From the NCBI RefSeq assembly GCF_009928425.1, contig NZ_JAABNS010000001.1:3782001-3846000 (forward strand): a stretch of 64,000 bases of DNA, read 5' to 3'. The DNA comes from Pseudarthrobacter sp. ATCC 49987 (GTDB lineage: Bacteria > Actinomycetota > Actinomycetes > Actinomycetales > Micrococcaceae). Under the pieces are notes generated by a model. The model saw only the letters and a list, made by a program, of their open reading frames with translations. It ran no database searches and was not told where the DNA came from. Both the position numbers and the translations under genes were made by a program. This document shows, one piece after another, positions 42,175 through 51,945 of this stretch (position 1 is its first letter; every line of letters starts with the position of its first letter).

Positions 42175-42490
42175 GTGACTTCGATTACGGCACCGGTGCC
42201 CCGCCTTCGCCCTTTCGCCCAGGTGGACGTCTTTACTGACGTGCCCTACCGGGGCAACCCGCTGGCCGTCGTCGTCGACGCAGCGGGCCTCTCCACCGGT
42301 GTGATGCAACAGTTCGCCAACTGGACGAACCTCTCCGAGACCACGTTCCTGCTGCCGCCCACCGACCCCGGCGCCGACTACCGGGTCAGGATCTTCACGG
42401 GCAGCGAGGAGTTCCCTTTTGCAGGCCACCCGAAGCTCGGCTCGGCGCATGCCTGGCTTGAAGCCGGCGGCATCCCCCGGCAGGAACGGG
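42175..42490 (+). pseudogene. 5' half of an interrupted PhzF-family gene
   Basis: GTG start. About 105 residues match the N-terminal half of PhzF epimerases: AQVDVFTDVPYRGNPLAVVV, NWTNLSETTFLLPP with the catalytic-region Glu, and GSEEFPFAGHPKLGSAHAWL. Similarity stops at GGIPRQER, just where a minus-strand gene's stop codon begins, and the missing half resumes at about 48490. The remaining reading frame into the insert is not PhzF-like. Confidence 0.8.
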
Positions 42491-43330
42491 CTAGTTGGAT
42501 GGACCCGTGGCGGTCGCTGCCACGACCTGGACGGATTCGGCCGTGTAGCCGGAGCCGTCCTTCGCGGCCACGATCCGCACGGTTCCGCCGGCCGCGATGT
42601 CCGACACGGTCAGGTCCGCGCCCGATGCGCCCGCCTGCGGACGGCGCTGGAGCATGCTGCTTACCTGTACATCACTGCCGAGGGTGTAGCTGCGGGTGAA
42701 TCCGTCGGCGCTCTTGACGGTAACGGAAGTTGAACTGACGTCACTCACTGTGCCCAGCTGCTCAGCCTTGGTGGTGTAGTCGCTGCCGTCCAGCACCACG
42801 TATTCAGCGTGCACAGCTGCAGACAGCCCGCCGGGCATGCCGCCTGCTGCAAAGCCGTTAGGACCGCCCTGCCCGGGCATTCCGCCTCCCGCCGGTCCGC
42901 CTTGCTGGGAGCCGGGCGTTCCCGGAGCGAAGCCCTGGGTGCCACCGCCTGGTCCGCCGGCACCGGCGGACGCAGTCGCGCTGCTTGCCTGACTTGACGT
43001 GAGCGCGTAGGCGCCCGCACCCGCGGCGGCCCCCAGGGCGACTGTGGCGCCAGCGACGGCGAGCCCCCGTTTCATCGTCCACGGTTTCCCTGCCGACGGT
43101 TTCGGAGCTTCGGCGGCCGGCGCGCCCCATCCCGGGGCCCGTTGTTCCGCTTCCGGTGCTCCGGGCACAGCCTGGTGCCAGTCTGTTGACTGCGCGGCGG
43201 GAGAGCCGCCCGCGGCAGCGTAAGGTGCGGTCATCGGGGTTGGGTCGGCTGCGCCGGGGGTGCCGAAACCGTGGTCCGGGCCGTGTCCGGGGACCGGCCG
43301 CGAACTGCCTCCGGGGTGCTGGTTGCTCAA
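42491..43330 (-). CDS. Gly/Pro-rich protein with single membrane anchor
   Basis: 279 aa from TTG 43330, which has CAGGAGA six bases away. Residues 1-85 are Gly/Pro-rich, and a helix at about 88-112 (GLAVAGATVALGAAAGAGAYAL) anchors it. A Gly/Gln-rich spacer follows. The outer domain (about 170-275) is beta-rich (YVVLDGSDYTTKAEQLGTVS, VTVKSADGFTRSYTLG, IAAGGTVRIVAAKDG), resembling DUF5666-type domains. It is divergent from the kinase operon across repeats suggesting shared control. Function unknown. Confidence 0.7.
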   Translation of the reverse strand: MSNQHPGGSSRPVPGHGPDHGFGTPGAADPTPMTAPYAAAGGSPAAQSTDWHQAVPGAPEAEQRAPGWGAPAAEAPKPSAGKPWTMKRGLAVAGATVALGAAAGAGAYALTSSQASSATASAGAGGPGGGTQGFAPGTPGSQQGGPAGGGMPGQGGPNGFAAGGMPGGLSAAVHAEYVVLDGSDYTTKAEQLGTVSDVSSTSVTVKSADGFTRSYTLGSDVQVSSMLQRRPQAGASGADLTVSDIAAGGTVRIVAAKDGSGYTAESVQVVAATATGPSN

Positions 43331-43379
43331 GGTGTTTCTCCTGTCAGGGGCTGGTTCATGTCCACCCCAGAATGTCGAA

Positions 43380-43412
43380 CGATCCTGTGCCGATCCTGTG
43401 CCGATGCTGTGT
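43380..43412. promoter_or_regulatory. Three 11-bp direct repeats near the anchored-protein gene
   Basis: CGATCCTGTGC at 43380-43390 and 43391-43401, then CGATGCTGTGT at 43402-43412, in perfect tandem. Eleven-base direct repeats are the usual binding mode of OmpR/PhoB-family regulators. They lie 50-82 bases upstream of the TTG of the minus-strand gene. Confidence 0.6.
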
Positions 43413-43506
43413 GGGCCGGCGGCCGGGCCCGTGTGATTGTCCGCCCGCTCCCAACGGCCCCAGCCAATTGCGCGCAGATACCTGCTTCTTGTTGCCTTGG
43501 GGAGTT

Positions 43507-43539
43507 TCACAGCAGCGGCACAGGGTCCGCACAGCCGCG
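43507..43539. promoter_or_regulatory. Second set of 11-bp repeats, opposite orientation, near the kinase gene
   Basis: TCACAGCAGCG, GCACAGGGTCC and GCACAGCCGCG lie end to end at 11-bp period, sharing CACAG, the reverse of the CTGTG in the left set. The two sets face the two divergent genes. The remainder of 43331-43636 holds no gene. Confidence 0.5.
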
Positions 43540-43636
43540 GCTCAACGGCAGGCCGGAGTCTGGTCCCATGGACCCTTCGCACATCTACGCAACTCCCGTT
43601 CCCGCCGACAACGCCTGGCTGCCGGGGAACTGATCC

Positions 43637-44968
43637 TTGGCTGCACTTTCCGGGGCGACTCTCCAGCCCGGGCATTCCTGGCGTACCCCGTCCAGCTGGC
43701 ACCTGCGGACGCGCCTGGTGATTGTTGCCATGGTGTTGCTGGTGACCATTTGCGGTGCTGTGGGCGTGTTTAGCTATGTCTCCATGGACGGTGTCCTCAC
43801 CCGGCAGCTCGATCAGCAACTGGGCGGCGCGTCCCATCGCTCGAGCATTTTCGGCCAGCCGGTCCCCGGCACCATGGTCGGCCCCGATCCGCTGGAAGCA
43901 CGGGGCCAGAGTGTCGGCACGCTCAACGCCCGGATGCTCAACGGCGCAGTGGTCAGCGCCGGCTTTCTCGCCGGCGATGCCACCCGCAGAGGCCTTTCCA
44001 CCGAGGACGACGCCGTCCTCCTGGCTCTCACTCCGGACGCGGCGCCCGTGGGCCGCACCCTTTCGGCTGGTGCCTACCGGCTCACTTCCGTGCGAACGCC
44101 CTTTGGTGACGTCATTGTCACCGGGCTTCCCCTGGCGGAAAAGCAAAATATCTTGGCCTCGCTGGTGTGGACGTTGGTGCTGGTCTCCGCAGCAGGACTG
44201 GTGCTGATCGGACTCGCCGGCACGGCTGCCATCCGGCGGACCTTGAAGCCGCTGGAACAACTTTCCGAAGTTGCCACCAAGGTTTCCCGACTCCCGCTGG
44301 ACGCCGGCGAGGTCACGCTCGGGGTGCGCGTCCCGGCGTCGGCCGCTCATCCGGGAACCGAGGTGGGCAGCGTGGGATACGCGCTGAACCAGATGCTGGA
44401 CAACGTCTCCAACGCCCTCGAGGCACGGCAGGAGAGCGAACTCCCGGATGAGCCCGTGGTGGTGCGCGGTGATGCGGCCCAGCTTCACCAGGTCATTGCC
44501 AACCTTCTGTCCAATGCCCGCAAGCACACCGCCCCCGGAACGAGGGTCGTCACCGGCGTTATGCGTTCGGCTGACGGCAGCGCCATGGTGACCGTCACGG
44601 ATAACGGGGGCGGGATTCCTCCCGAATTCCTCAGCCGGGTCTTCGCCCGCTTCGCCCGCTTCGCACGGGCCGACACCGCACGCACCCCAGTAGCGAACAG
44701 CGCGGCGGTCCACCAGCCGGACGGGACGGCAGGCGGCACGGGTTGCATGGCCGGCACCGGGTCCGCCGAGGGCACCAGCGGCCTGGGCTTGTCCATTGTG
44801 CAGTCGATCCTGGAGGCCCACGGCGGCACCGTTGAAGTCTCCTCCCGGCCCGGCCGGACGGAGTTCGCCATTCGGCTGCCCGCGGCGCCGCCCGCGCGGA
44901 CTTTCACAGGCCGCGCACAGCTTGTCCCTAAGGACCTCATATCGGCCTCCCGGACGGTTGACGCATGA
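43637..44968 (+). CDS. Sensor histidine kinase lacking its HisKA domain
   Basis: 443 aa, TTG start. TM1 at about 24-48, an extracytoplasmic region to 172, TM2 at 173-198, HAMP to about 262. At residue 267-268 (EARQESE then LPDEPVVVRGD) the sequence jumps straight into the end of the spacer before the ATPase: the H-box region with the phospho-His, about 100-140 residues in relatives, is absent in frame. The HATPase domain is intact (QVIANLLSNARKHT, DNGGGIPPEF, GTSGLGLSIVQSILEAHGG), with a low-complexity insert in the lid. It can bind ATP but not autophosphorylate in the usual way. No response regulator gene is adjacent. Confidence 0.82.
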   Translation: MAALSGATLQPGHSWRTPSSWHLRTRLVIVAMVLLVTICGAVGVFSYVSMDGVLTRQLDQQLGGASHRSSIFGQPVPGTMVGPDPLEARGQSVGTLNARMLNGAVVSAGFLAGDATRRGLSTEDDAVLLALTPDAAPVGRTLSAGAYRLTSVRTPFGDVIVTGLPLAEKQNILASLVWTLVLVSAAGLVLIGLAGTAAIRRTLKPLEQLSEVATKVSRLPLDAGEVTLGVRVPASAAHPGTEVGSVGYALNQMLDNVSNALEARQESELPDEPVVVRGDAAQLHQVIANLLSNARKHTAPGTRVVTGVMRSADGSAMVTVTDNGGGIPPEFLSRVFARFARFARADTARTPVANSAAVHQPDGTAGGTGCMAGTGSAEGTSGLGLSIVQSILEAHGGTVEVSSRPGRTEFAIRLPAAPPARTFTGRAQLVPKDLISASRTVDA

Positions 44969-46317
44969 CGTTCACAGAGCAGGCTTCCGAAGCCCAGCCC
45001 CCTGCCGAAGGGGCGACGGTCCGCCCGGGCGGCGGCCGCCCCGCCGTTGACCCGCGTGTCACGGCTGCGCTGCTGGATGTCACGATCCCGGTCTTCAATG
45101 AGGAACGGGACCTGGAGGCGTGCCTGCGTAGGCTGCACGCCTACCTCCTCGGTTCTTTTCCGCATTCGTTTCGCATCACAGTGGCGGACAACGCCAGTAC
45201 CGACGGAACGCTCCAGCTGGCTGAACGCGTCGCCCGCGAGCTCCCCGAAGTGACCGTGGTCCACTTGGCGGAGAAGGGCCGGGGAAACGCGTTGCGCAAG
45301 GTGTGGCTGGCCTCGCCGTCGCCGGTTCTGGCCTATATGGACGTGGACCTGTCCACGGACCTGGCCGCGTTGGGGCCGCTCCTGGCACCGCTCATCTCGG
45401 GACATTCCGATCTGGCCATCGGGACCCGCCTGACGCGCAACTCGCGCGTGGTCCGGGGGCCGAAACGGGAATTCATCTCCCGCAGCTATAACTTCCTGCT
45501 GCACTCCTGGATGGGCGTCCACTTCAGCGACGCCCAGTGCGGTTTCAAGGCCATCCGCGCCGACGTCGCCCGTCAGCTGCTCCCGCATACCCTGGACAAC
45601 GCCTGGTTCTTCGACACCGAGCTGCTGGTCCTTGCTGAGAGGTGCGGCCTGCGCGTCCACGAGGTCCCGGTGGACTGGACCGACGACCCTGATTCCAGCG
45701 TGGACATCGTCCAGACAGCGCTGGAGGATCTGCGCGGCATGGCCCGACTGAGCCGGGACCTGGTCTCGGGCCGGATACCCGTTCCCGAGCTCCGGGCGGC
45801 CTTAGCCCGGGGCCCATTGCCTGCCGCCGCCAGAGCCCAGGAACAAAGCCCGGGCGGCAGCCTCTTCGGACAGCTGGTCCGCTTCGGCAGCATCGGGGTG
45901 GCCTCCACCCTGGCCTACTTGCTCATTTTTCTGCTCTGCCGGGGCTTCATGGACCCGCAACTGGCCAACTTCCTCGCGCTGCTGAGCACCGCCGTGGCCA
46001 ACACCGCCGCGAACCGGCGCTTCACGTTCGGCATCCAGGGCAGTAGCGAGGCGGGACGCCACCACTTCGAAGGGCTGCTGGTCTTCGGCATCGGGCTCGC
46101 CTTGACCTCGGGCGCACTGGCCCTGGTTCACGGCACGTCCGGCGGAACCCCGGACCGCTGGCTGGAACTGGTCACGGTCACCGCCGCCAACCTCCTCGCC
46201 ACCGTCGTCAAGTTCCTGCTCTTCCGGCTTGTGGTGTTCCGCCGCCGGTCCACCGGCATTCCCCCGGCGCCAGCCGCCGACACGTCCCTCCCCGCACAGA
46301 AACGGCCAAGTAAATGA
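44965..46317 (+). CDS. GT2 dolichol-phosphate-sugar synthase fused to GtrA-like flippase
   Basis: 450 aa, ATG overlapping the kinase stop. Residues about 30-270 are a GT2 domain of DPM1/CsbB type (DVTIPVFNEERDLEACLRRL, VADNASTDGT, YMDVDLSTDL, DAQCGFKAIRAD). Residues about 305-430 are a four-helix GtrA domain (LVRFGSIGVASTLAYLLIF, ANTAANRRFTFG). It would load a sugar on undecaprenyl phosphate and flip it. With the next gene it matches the CsbB/GtcA/YfhO three-part glycosylation logic. Confidence 0.88.
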   Translation: MTFTEQASEAQPPAEGATVRPGGGRPAVDPRVTAALLDVTIPVFNEERDLEACLRRLHAYLLGSFPHSFRITVADNASTDGTLQLAERVARELPEVTVVHLAEKGRGNALRKVWLASPSPVLAYMDVDLSTDLAALGPLLAPLISGHSDLAIGTRLTRNSRVVRGPKREFISRSYNFLLHSWMGVHFSDAQCGFKAIRADVARQLLPHTLDNAWFFDTELLVLAERCGLRVHEVPVDWTDDPDSSVDIVQTALEDLRGMARLSRDLVSGRIPVPELRAALARGPLPAAARAQEQSPGGSLFGQLVRFGSIGVASTLAYLLIFLLCRGFMDPQLANFLALLSTAVANTAANRRFTFGIQGSSEAGRHHFEGLLVFGIGLALTSGALALVHGTSGGTPDRWLELVTVTAANLLATVVKFLLFRLVVFRRRSTGIPPAPAADTSLPAQKRPSK

Positions 46318-48377
46318 CCGCCACCACCGCTCACACCGCCGGGACCCCGGCCGCTCCGGCCCCTGAGCAGACACCCCCGACGACGACGGCAGGGCTTCTG
46401 CCGCCCACAGCGCACGGGAGCCGCCACCGGCTGCTGTTCGGACCGCAACCACGGTGGGTTCGGCCCTCCGCAGCCCTGCTGCTGGTCCTCGCCGCCGTGC
46501 TGTACCTCTGGAACCTGGAAGCCACCGGCTACGGAAACTCCTTCTACGCCGCCGCGGTCCAGGCGGGCACCAAGGACTGGACGGCGTTGCTGTTCGGCTC
46601 GCTCGACGCCGGCAACGCCATCACGGTGGACAAACCGCCGGCCGCCCTCTGGATCCCGGCCCTCGCCGGACGGATCTTCGGCTTCTCGGCCCTGAGCATG
46701 CTCATCCCCCAGGCGCTCATGGGCGTGGCCGCCGTCGGGCTTCTCTACCTGACGGTGAAACGCGTATCAGGACCGGCTGCGGGACTGCTGGCCGGCGGCG
46801 CCCTGGCACTGACACCGGTGGCTGCCCTGATGTTCCGGTTCAACAACCCGGACGCCATGCTCATCCTGTGCCTGGTGCTGGCCGCCTACCTCACCACCCG
46901 CGCCATCGAGAAAGCCGGCTGGAAATGGCTCGCCGCAGCCGGCGCCGTGATCGGACTGGCCTTCCTGACCAAGATGCTGCAGGGCTTCCTGATCATTCCC
47001 GCACTGGGCCTGGCCTACCTCTGGGCGGCGCCCACCACCTTGGTCCGCCGGCTCCTGCACCTGTTGGGCGCCGCAGCAGGAATTGCGGTGGTAGCCGGAA
47101 GCTACATTGCACTGTTCCAGCTGACCCCCGCCTCAGCCCGGCCGTACATGGCCGGCTCCAAAACCAACAGCTTCCTGGAACTTACCTTCGGGTACAACGG
47201 CCTGGGACGGATCACCGGCTCCGGCGGAGCCATGCCGGACTTCGGCGCCATGCCGGGCGGCGGAGCCATGCCGGACTTCGGCGCCATGCCCGGCGGAGGC
47301 CCCGGCGGCGGTGGAAACGCGGGCTTTGGCGGCACGGCCGGCATCACCCGCATGTTCGGAACCAGCTTCGGCGGGGAAGTGTCCTGGTTGCTCCCGGCAG
47401 CCCTGATCCTGCTGGTCGCCGGGCTCTGGTTCACCCACCGCGAGGCACGGACATCCGCCACCCGCGCCGCACTTCTGCTCTGGGGCGGCTGGCTGATCGG
47501 CACGGCAGGCATCTTCAGCTTCATGGGCGGCATCGTCCACCCGTACTACGCCGTGGCGCTGGCCCCCGCGGTCGCGGCCCTTGTGGGCATCGGTTCGGTG
47601 GAACTGTGGCGGGGACGGTCCTTCTGGCCCGCGCGGATCGTTTTGGCCGTGACGGTGCTGACCACCTCCACATGGTCCGCTATTCTGCTGGTCCGCGACC
47701 CGGACTGGATGCCGGGGCTTCGGGTGATCATCGTGGTCCTTGGCGTCCTGGCTGCGGCAGCGCTCCTGCTCAGCATGGACCGCATGGCGGCGCTCCCGGC
47801 CAAGCTCCGCAAGGCCGCCACGGCCGGGGTCCTGGTCACCTCGCTGCTGGCCGGCGGCCTCGGGACCACGGCCTGGACACTGGCGACGGCGGCCCAGCCG
47901 CATTCCGGTGCGATCCCCACCTCCGGACCTAGCGCGTCCGCGATGGGCGACGGCAAGGGCGGGCCGGGCATGGTCCCGGGCGACGACGGCAATGCCGGCG
48001 GCGCGGCCGCGGACACCAGAGCCGGGCGCAGAGCCCCCGGCGGACCCGGCGTCGACACGGCGTCGGCGGAACTGATCGCACTGTTGAAGTCCTCCGGCAC
48101 CAAGTGGTCCGCGATTGTCTCCGGTGCCACCTCCGCAGCGGACTTGGAACTCGCCACCGACACTTCCGTGATCGCTCTGGGCGGCTTCTCTGGCGGTGAC
48201 CCGTACCCAACCCTCGCGCAGTTCCAGCAGATGGTGGACCGTGGCGAGATCGGATACTTCATCGCCGGCAGTATGGGCGGGGGGCCCGGGGGCAACTCCG
48301 AGGTCGCCACCTGGGTGGCAGCCAACTACGCGGCTGAAACCGTCGGTAACAGCACCGTCTACAAACTGGCGTCGTAA
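46314..48377 (+). CDS. GT39/ArnT-like membrane glycosyltransferase
   Basis: 687 aa GT-C enzyme, ATG overlapping the previous stop. About 12 helices; the first outer loop has NSFYAAAVQAGTKDWTALLF and ITVDKPPAALW, the typical YkcB/PMT-like Asp-Lys-Pro motif. A low-complexity loop near residues 300-345 repeats GAMPDFGAMPGG twice. The C-terminal 120 residues form a soluble outer domain (SAELIALLKSSGTKWSAIV). Probable last step that transfers the lipid-linked sugar to a surface acceptor. Confidence 0.85.
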   Translation: MTATTAHTAGTPAAPAPEQTPPTTTAGLLPPTAHGSRHRLLFGPQPRWVRPSAALLLVLAAVLYLWNLEATGYGNSFYAAAVQAGTKDWTALLFGSLDAGNAITVDKPPAALWIPALAGRIFGFSALSMLIPQALMGVAAVGLLYLTVKRVSGPAAGLLAGGALALTPVAALMFRFNNPDAMLILCLVLAAYLTTRAIEKAGWKWLAAAGAVIGLAFLTKMLQGFLIIPALGLAYLWAAPTTLVRRLLHLLGAAAGIAVVAGSYIALFQLTPASARPYMAGSKTNSFLELTFGYNGLGRITGSGGAMPDFGAMPGGGAMPDFGAMPGGGPGGGGNAGFGGTAGITRMFGTSFGGEVSWLLPAALILLVAGLWFTHREARTSATRAALLLWGGWLIGTAGIFSFMGGIVHPYYAVALAPAVAALVGIGSVELWRGRSFWPARIVLAVTVLTTSTWSAILLVRDPDWMPGLRVIIVVLGVLAAAALLLSMDRMAALPAKLRKAATAGVLVTSLLAGGLGTTAWTLATAAQPHSGAIPTSGPSASAMGDGKGGPGMVPGDDGNAGGAAADTRAGRRAPGGPGVDTASAELIALLKSSGTKWSAIVSGATSAADLELATDTSVIALGGFSGGDPYPTLAQFQQMVDRGEIGYFIAGSMGGGPGGNSEVATWVAANYAAETVGNSTVYKLAS

Positions 48378-48489
48378 CCGGCCATGGCTGACACTCTGAG
48401 CCCCGGGGTCCGGCGGCCGTACCCGGCGCGCCGGGCCATCCTCTACCGACGGACCGCCGTTCCGCGTAGGGGAGTGGGAGCACCGCCTG

Positions 48490-49146
48490 TCAACCATCCG
48501 CACTTGCAAAGTGCAGAGAAGGCTGGCTTTCGCGGCGCCGCCGCTGACCCGCTCGGGGCCGGTGGCCGAGGGGGACCTCACCCGCGTCGCCGCCGGCCTG
48601 GGGATGCCGCGGGAGGCGTCCTGGCTGGTCAACGGCCCGGACTGGATCGGTGTGCTGCTCGAGTCAGCGGAGCTGGTGCTGGCTGTCAGGCCTGATTACG
48701 CGGCCATGGCGGGACTCAAGGTCGGTGTGGTCGGTCCCCATCCGGCCGGATCCGAGGTCGGCTTCGAGGTGCGCACCTTTATCCCGGGCGACGCCGCGGC
48801 GGAAGACCCCGTCACCGGCAGCTTTAATGCCGGCGCGGCCCAGTGGCTGATCGGCAGTGGCCGTGCCCCCGAGTCCTACCTGGCGGCGCAGGGTACGGTG
48901 CTGGGCCGCGCCGGACGGGTCCACATCGATGCTGTGGGGGAGGACATCTGGGTCGGAGGGAGCTCGGTGAGCTGCATTGAGGGCTTCGTCCTGCTCAGAA
49001 CGGTTGAACGGGTCGTCGGCCGGACCGCGCGTTGCGCCCCCGTTGCGCTGCCAGTTGTGGTCGCCATTGCGCGGGCTGGAGGACCGGGAGTGACAGGGCA
49101 ACGAAGGACGGGAATAAAAGCTCCGGGACCCGGCTTCTACAGGTAG
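48490..49146 (+). pseudogene. 3' half of the interrupted PhzF-family gene
   Basis: The frame LSTIRTCKVQRRLAFAAPP, then NGPDWIGVLLESAEL, FEVRTFIPGDAAAEDPVTGS and NAGAAQWLIGSG is the C-terminal PhzF half. The only start candidates (GTG 48511) lie inside the domain and have no SD. Normal family members end near SVSCIEGFVLL; here the frame continues 49 further residues, so the original stop has also been lost. About 10-15 central residues of PhzF are missing between the two halves. Confidence 0.8.
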
Positions 49147-51316: not shown

Positions 51317-51945
51317 GTAATGAGCTTATGCCAGATCGCAGTTATCCACAGCACATTCGGGAATTGGCATACCCTGCGTCGCCGGAGGCGCCAGTCCCGG
51401 GCTTTCCGTGAGGACCATCACTAAATGTGCATATTTCCGTGGGTGTGTGGCCTCATATGCCAGCCGCTATCCCCAGCCGCGGTCCGCGTTCTGTGGATGA
51501 ACATCGGCCGAAATTCTTTTGTGTCCACATGGCGAAGTCAGTGTTTCCGCAGGTCAGACGCTGATTGCCGGCCCAACAAATTTTCTATCCACAGCTGTTC
51601 CCACAGGCTGTGCACAAGCAGGAGGCAGTAGTGCACAGCTTATCCACAGGGGTTGGGGACGTCCGGGTTGGTGCCTGCCCGGACGGGGGATAACGTTGCT
51701 GGATATCGAGCCTTGGATACCGAAATCCGATGCTGCCTTCCTTTCGATCTCCGGCGCCGCGGTGCCGGGCCCGGGCTGTGGAAAACCGGCGGCGCCGGGA
51801 GGCGGCCAAAGTGTCGGAGCCGGCTGATAGGACTTAACCCGTCGCGCATACGCCGGGGTCGGCGCCACCGAGCACCGAGGACCAATGGCATACGCGTCGC
51901 CGGCGAACGGACGTCCGCCGCGGCACACAATGGAGGACGGCAGTT
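51317..51945. other. 629-bp non-coding region upstream of dnaB
   Basis: No supported gene on either strand. It has DnaA-box-like sites in its first half and patches richer in A/T (CATATTTCC, AAATTCTTTTGTG, CAACAAATTTTCTATCC) than the surroundings. The right part (51690-51945) shows nothing I can name apart from the dnaB SD (GGAGGAC) near 51932. Confidence 0.6.
51342..51648. promoter_or_regulatory. Cluster of DnaA-box-like sites
   Basis: TTATCCACA is perfect at 51342-51350 and 51640-51648. CTATCCACA at 51585-51593 and TCATCCACA (minus strand, 51492-51500) fit the relaxed actinobacterial consensus YYVTCCACA. Weaker sites are GTGTCCACA (51521-51529) and TTGTGCACA (minus, 51609-51617). Four good boxes within 307 bp of intergenic DNA upstream of the replicative helicase gene are well above chance. 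Confidence 0.6.

Follow-up and report, generated by a model that had tools for sequence, protein, structure and literature searches.

A phzF gene of Pseudarthrobacter interrupted by a glycosylation module, most likely acquired, that has lost its regulators and kept its predicted operators

How a gene comes to be divided by several kilobases of unrelated coding sequence, and what would control the genes that divide it, are the questions raised by a phzF locus of Pseudarthrobacter sp. ATCC 49987. The window analysed, a stretch of 64,000 nucleotides, comprises bases 3782001-3846000 of contig C1 (4.17 Mb) in a genome of 4.40 Mb (G000) that is 99.99% complete; positions are numbered from the first letter of the window. 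Two parts of phzF flank a block of ~6.0 kb carrying glycosyltransferase genes and the remnants of a response regulator (RR) and a histidine kinase (HK). The explanation considered probable is that a fragment of a foreign surface-sugar operon joined phzF without homology, lost its regulators, kept its operators and is run in trans by a two-component system resident in the recipient. The new observation is that the RR and HisKA, the phospho-acceptor domain of the HK, were lost in frame and yet all three operators were retained.

In Pfam searches the N-terminal part of phzF aligned with positions 1-85 of the PhzC-PhzF profile and the C-terminal part, at ~48520-48996, with positions 146-281. These results confirm what an earlier reading of this DNA from the letters alone (the sequence-only reading) had claimed, that the two ends are pieces of one PhzF, cut by a foreign block. 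PhzF is no longer encoded as one uninterrupted reading frame, and with the loss of the gene's own stop codon the frame of the C-terminal remnant continues to 49146. The intact gene was found in relatives, the two parts adjoining each other in all 80 named loci, usually with a gap of 42 nt between the aligned parts (60 of 80). Its neighbours were rplI upstream in 67 loci and FMN reductase downstream in 50, both being present in 50. Neither the GT2 glycosyltransferase fused to a GtrA-type membrane domain (GT) nor the PMT_2/YkcB-type GT-C membrane glycosyltransferase (PMT) of the block gave a match above 300 bits in the stretches fetched for these 80 loci. A query spanning the left junction was matched in 172 of 206 genus genomes (G000 and 205 others); among the matches listed the junction was bridged in G000 only, the rest matching either phzF or the block alone, and a match bridging both sides would rank near the top of its list. 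That the split is seen in one genome only might suggest an assembly chimera, which is barely credible since the site lies within a contig and a genome of the size and completeness given above and since the in-frame changes and correct operator spacing described below are not expected of a misjoin. The ratio of nonsynonymous to synonymous substitution rates (dN/dS) had a median of 0.15 for the N-terminal remnant against 0.13 for intact genes, and of 0.11 for the C-terminal remnant against 0.15; this similarity suggests a recent event. A second, complete PhzF is encoded at C1:1485782-1486600. Elsewhere among the phzF loci, the C-terminal part is spread over two frames in Arthrobacter sp. Hiyo8 (L028, 10343-10830), an apparent frameshift, and a divergent second phzF lies on the opposite strand close to the first in L063, L068, L074 and L081.

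The genes of the block have counterparts in a module at an ancestral site of the genus. In all 25 module-bearing loci fetched (L114-L133 and L241-L245, selected on the basis of their GT or HK match) the order is a transcription regulator gene (TR), a Gly-rich gene on the opposite strand, RR, HK, GT2-GtrA and GT-C, followed by upp where the stretch is long enough and with a second GT-C gene in most. Full-length GT orthologues of at least 76% identity occur in 50 of 149 other sampled genomes, and compared with five module loci the GT and PMT of the block are 83-88% and 82-85% identical. The ancestral site of G000 itself, ~0.6 Mb from the block, holds TR, RR, a full HK (552 aa), an aggregation-promoting-factor-like gene and upp, that is, an intact orthologous two-component system without the module. 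Thirteen further module-free sites were fetched (L229-L240 and L246, most picked for a weak GT search), including those of the six genomes nearest to G000 in a FastTree tree of RR and TR (G053, G046, G088, G132, G124 and G171). The GT search in five of these six, G171 lying outside the sample, gave four weak matches with E values of 7e-20 to 1e-18; the match of G132 was 57% identical, comparable to the match of G000 elsewhere in its genome (58%). Two more fetched sites are ambiguous: L247 showed a shorter GT match and no visible PMT, and the GT of L248 ran off the end of the fetched sequence.

Phylogenetic analysis placed the HK remnant in a clade of 15 rows (support 98/97) comprising 12 module loci, the remnant itself, G018 and G024, and the GT of the block in a clade of 13 rows (support 97/97) without internal resolution. 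In a topology test of 33 rows, nine having been left out beforehand, forcing the remnant and the resident HK to be sisters cost 95 log units and was rejected by the approximately unbiased (AU) test (p 8e-5); constraining it inside the resident clade gave an AU p of 0.025. The results bear on a relocation within G000, in which a copy of a native module passed from the ancestral site to phzF and both sites then lost complementary parts. The resident RR-HK pair, without the Gly-rich gene and transferases, is indeed the complement of what the insert contains, but such a history is quite improbable as the HK copies share only 71-78% identity in DNA and are not sisters, and as near relatives are likewise module-free at that site. 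The block is most likely a shortened, horizontally acquired copy of the module, because the nearest relatives and the strain's own site are module-free, the HK remnant clusters with genomes that bear the module, and its placement as sister of the resident HK is rejected. The comparative and tree evidence thereby backs the earlier proposal that a glycosylation module was inserted horizontally into an expendable gene. A plasmid-borne module in G171 was also considered and rejected, the two exact matches to an operator 17-mer lying in unrelated DNA. An aggregation-promoting-factor C-terminal-like gene adjoins RR-HK in the genus, either between HK and GT or close to upp depending on the locus (L116, 8208-9038; L185, 8990-9727), and in more than 20 genomes (e.g. 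G148, G115 and G100) the match to the GT is confined to its N-terminal ~260-330 residues.

Three internal deletions were found in the block, and the source operon is severed within a gene (Table 1). An in-frame loss has left 21 codons of the RR. From the HK an in-frame deletion near 44438-44440, calculated from six loci to be 303 nt long, has removed HisKA; no HisKA domain was matched in the insert by Pfam, while the domain was found in L116 and the motif SHELRTPL is visible in the resident HK. The remnant thus lacks the domain expected of a working two-component kinase, and the block holds neither the full cognate RR nor the full HK of a PhoP-type unit. The join created by this deletion was absent among the matches listed for the 205 other genus genomes. 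Compared with L118, the HK stop codon and the gap between HK and GT are gone, with the consequence that the HK frame overlaps the start of GT. The Gly-rich protein matched no Pfam or NCBIfam family.

Table 1. Features of the interrupted phzF locus (window positions).
Feature	Position	Strand	Basis
phzF N-terminal remnant, codons 1-105	42175..42489	+	PF02567, E 4e-29; contiguous with C-terminal part in 80/80 relatives
Left junction: phzF CAGGA, one extra A, CGGG, then stop codon of minus-strand gene	42480..42493	.	six intact phzF and seven module loci
Gly-rich exported or membrane-anchored protein, 280 aa	42491..43333	-	orthologue in 25/25 module loci
Predicted operator 1, three CTGTG boxes, upstream of minus-strand Gly-rich gene	43385..43411	+	pattern scan
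Predicted operator 2, three boxes, first pair 60 bp upstream of RR remnant ATG	43508..43534	-	pattern scan and 41 RR loci
RR remnant: ATG and ~4 codons fused in frame to last ~16 codons	43568..43633	+	alignment with six module loci
HK remnant: sensor, HAMP and HATPase retained	43637..44968	+	Pfam and alignment
Predicted operator 3, two boxes, 60 bp upstream of GT ATG	44905..44920	-	pattern scan
GT2 glycosyltransferase fused to GtrA-type membrane domain (GT), 450 aa	44965..46317	+	PF00535, E 3e-21; PF04138, E 3e-13
GT-C membrane glycosyltransferase, PMT_2/YkcB-type (PMT), 687 aa	46314..48377	+	PF13231, E 1e-32; PF24878, E 3e-26
Second GT-C gene, first ~10 codons, then cut	48384..48414	+	L116 match ends at 48414; MADTLSPG vs MTDTLSPx of relatives
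22-bp ABC-exporter-like stretch	48480..48501	+	22/22 identical to G062 gene; 21/22 in many genomes
Recurrent 21-bp sequence CACTTGCAAAGTGCAGAGAAG	48501..48521	+	exact copy; overlaps resuming phzF by ~2 bases
phzF C-terminal remnant, 159 codons, RLAFAAPP to VLL	48520..48996	+	profile and locus comparison

The predicted operators follow the pattern CTGTG-N6-CTGTG, that is, direct repeats at the 11-bp period of a PhoP-type unit. Three-box matches were found twice, as opposed to none in 100 shuffles, and of six two-box matches in the window five lie inside the block, with 0.19 expected per window. A stricter pattern, SCTGTGYNNNNSCTGTG, had six matches in the 4.4-Mb genome, five in the block and one before the resident RR (reversed control, one). 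Among ancestral-site loci an operator precedes the RR in 41 of 41, that of G000 included, at -60 in 40 and at -61 in one. All three operators are present in each of the 25 module loci, and the RR operator alone at the 13 module-free sites and at the strain's own site (L237 having two overlapping pairs); L247 has two operators and L248 three. The GT operator lies exactly at -60 from the alignment start in 11 of 27 loci, the distance in L118 being the only one of the others re-measured, by eye. Two of the three operators of the block carry an extra box, and the 60-bp spacing to the RR remnant and to GT is kept. The sixth two-box match, CTGTGGATAAGCTGTG at 51634-51649, contains the DnaA-box-like TGTGGATAA; many of the phzF loci have a match to the pattern at a comparable distance.

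The resident RR is 95-96% identical to the RR of seven module loci, its DNA-binding part 94-96%. The closest structure in PDB is that of Mycobacterium tuberculosis PhoP (E 1e-69), and the recognition-helix stretches appear similar by eye. According to the accessible part of PMC4832192, PhoP binds 7-bp direct repeats, TCACAGC, with a 4-bp spacer. The best-supported reading of the predicted operators is that the resident two-component system most likely controls the captured glycosylation genes in trans. A course of events consistent with the sequences can be proposed. An operon fragment extending from the Gly-rich gene through RR, HK, GT2-GtrA and one GT-C gene into a second GT-C gene would have entered the lineage from a module-bearing Arthrobacter, joined phzF without homology and destroyed it. 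The RR, the HisKA part of the HK and the HK-GT gap would have been lost before or after transfer, the three PhoP-box-like operators and the transferases staying. On the recipient side, an orthologous RR-HK pair would already have occupied the ancestral site, its sole operator standing before the RR, and this pair would switch the captured genes in trans. Of this account the insertion, the separate ancestry of the kinase copies, the losses and the operators are read directly from the sequences; the direction of transfer, the mode of joining, the control in trans and the roles of the enzymes are inferred.

The block contains the components of a multi-component transmembrane glycosylation system, a GT-A (GT2), a GtrA-type flippase domain and a GT-C. 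In the part of PMC8035078 available, YkcB and YkcC of Bacillus subtilis are members of such systems with a role that is not known, and in that of PMC11081497 YkcB is thought to move a polyprenyl-linked sugar onto surface polymers. The captured genes would form a surface-glycosylation set: the GT2 would load a sugar on polyprenyl phosphate, the GtrA domain would perform the flipping and the GT-C would transfer the sugar outside. The dN/dS ratios, determined against five loci with three control pairs, were 0.12-0.17 for GT (controls 0.15-0.16), 0.20-0.23 for PMT (controls 0.15-0.16) and 0.17-0.27 for the HK remnant (controls 0.12-0.16). Constraint persists on the transferases, if slightly weaker on PMT, and the kinase drifts with its frame open. 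The term functional module used in the sequence-only reading therefore suits the transferase genes, which are of full length with low dN/dS, and does not fit the two-component genes. The raised ratio of the HK remnant, the slight rise in PMT, the three internal deletions and the truncated second GT-C gene could mean that the module is decaying, RR and HisKA being the first parts to be deleted and no regulation being involved. This is unlikely, since GT and PMT are complete, the GT ratio resembles its controls and the three operators survive, two with an extra box and with the spacings retained.

As the sequence-only reading had noted, the insert starts at its left edge with the CTA at 42491, the stop codon of the minus-strand Gly-rich gene; three of the seven module loci compared have 2-3 G on the source side here too, a weak microhomology. 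At the right junction ~40-55 nt of phzF are missing, and 65 bases (48415-48479) without assignment separate the cut second GT-C gene from the 22-bp stretch, whose match to an ABC exporter gene (Pfam-assigned) of G062 could be chance. The right edge lies at ~48517-48521 and not at 48489 as the earlier interpretation had it, and its four genes must be supplemented by the RR remnant and the first codons of the second transferase, the kinase being without HisKA. A 7-bp inverted match, which that interpretation allowed may be chance, is indeed at chance level, with an expectation of ~0.18 between two 60-bp zones, and its right half is off the junction; it is not the only terminal feature, the recurrent 21-bp sequence at the right edge having been overlooked. 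Nor was the insertion clean, in view of the missing target sequence, the source operon cut within a gene, the foreign text at the right end and the internal deletions. In a Pfam scan no transposase or integrase domain was found among the genes of the insert, no terminal repeat pair was found at the block ends and no target duplication was seen. The block thus has neither a mobility gene nor the target duplication or repeats at both ends of a transposon or integrative element, the recurrent 21-mer being at the right end only. The GC content per 1 kb was 0.67-0.71 inside the block, slightly above the left (0.59-0.66) and right (0.61-0.68) flanks. Overall the sequence-only reading is partly supported; the surviving operators and the intact orthologous two-component system had escaped it.

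The right-edge copy of the 21-bp sequence is the sole one in G000, with none at the left edge. Allowing up to two mismatches it was found at 27 places in 23 of the 206 genus genomes (reversed control, 0), the loci compared being the window copy and L283-L309. In other genomes too it stands mostly at junctions between unrelated flanks: 14 of the 26 other places share a parB-like right flank with ~12 different left flanks, seven share a left flank (the end of a DUF302 gene, with plasmid annotation) with ~5 different right flanks, and five have neither flank by BLAST, although the right flank of G120 is parB-like by eye. The sequence may represent a recombination site, or the end of an element, so far undescribed in Arthrobacter; at this junction it could be either of these or a piece captured in end joining. 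The block may accordingly have been joined by end joining, Ku being present in G000, or by recombination at this sequence, the finding of which lowers confidence in plain end joining. If it were a recombination site or element end, the block could have arrived as part of an element that has since lost its own genes. The recurrence with shared flanks on one side favours such an origin; the missing left-edge copy, the lack of a target duplication and the absence of transposase and integrase domains from the block make it doubtful, recombinases near the other copies not having been systematically sought. A 22-mer holding the sequence had no match in IMG/VR, nor did a stretch combining it with the parB-like part in phage records. 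A tRNA-derived origin of the right-junction text was dropped, because ARAGORN detected no tRNA either in the window or at loci L249-L253 and the flanks were other coding text. A reading of its last 24 bp as a random parB scrap was also dropped, because plasmid parB matches mostly start or stop at its edge and because of the genus-wide recurrence at junctions.

Several results weigh against the account of acquisition and trans control given above. The strict operator pattern totals 0-7 matches in each of 26 other genomes (reversed controls 0-4), which indicates imperfect specificity, and the RR operators of G046 and G053 escape it by one different base. G018 and G024, which share the clade of the HK remnant, are module-free; one AU p value is only 0.025, and the remnant is a long branch. 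None of the sampled genomes is a close donor, GT being ~90% identical at most. The 21-bp sequence speaks against purely random joining, and the dN/dS of PMT would allow a slight relaxation. An extension of the account is offered tentatively, as one that may well fail: the operon would have shed its own regulators since the recipient had an orthologous pair, would through its kept and enlarged operators be the sole target of the resident system besides that system's own gene, and its histidine-less kinase may be a decoy or non-phosphorylating sensor, the 21-bp sequence perhaps marking a recombination site. If true, a plug-in regulon would have been reunited across species. Titles and abstract openings retrieved for Arthrobacter PhzF, glycosyltransferase or two-component systems, or for actinobacterial RR, GtrA or mannosyltransferase direct repeats, held nothing on this locus. 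Host control of foreign genes is an open question, and related genomes of this group display every element of such a case: sites with and without the module, the empty site, regulators that were lost and operators that were kept. The adoption of a captured operon by an orthologous resident two-component system is a directly testable idea in a soil bacterium.

Insertion by illegitimate recombination with filler DNA is the general process that the locus recalls in its short microhomology, loss of target and foreign text at one edge. It differs in that the block is a 6-kb multigene fragment, and the recurrent sequence at the right edge means that the process may not have been random joining. The block shares its genes, their order and the operators with the ancestral Arthrobacter RR-HK-GT-PMT loci, which unlike the block have RR and a full HK at the TR-upp site and, in most but not in L118, the second GT-C gene. 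Operator 2, read as TCACAGC-N4-GCACAGG-N4-GCACAGC, resembles the box TCACAGC-N4-TCACAGC described for M. tuberculosis PhoP, the closest solved relative of the resident RR, in the accessible part of PMC4832192; unlike that regulator, the resident RR has predicted sites in G000 only at its own gene and in the block. The transferases are comparable to CsbB-GtcA-YfhO and YkcC-YkcB of B. subtilis, combinations of GT-A, GtrA flippase and GT-C as presented in the available text of PMC8035078, in that the GT2, GtrA-type domain and YkcB-family GT-C are encoded adjacently and with overlap. Unlike the B. subtilis systems as presented there, the GtrA domain of the block is fused to GT2 and predicted two-component operators are present.

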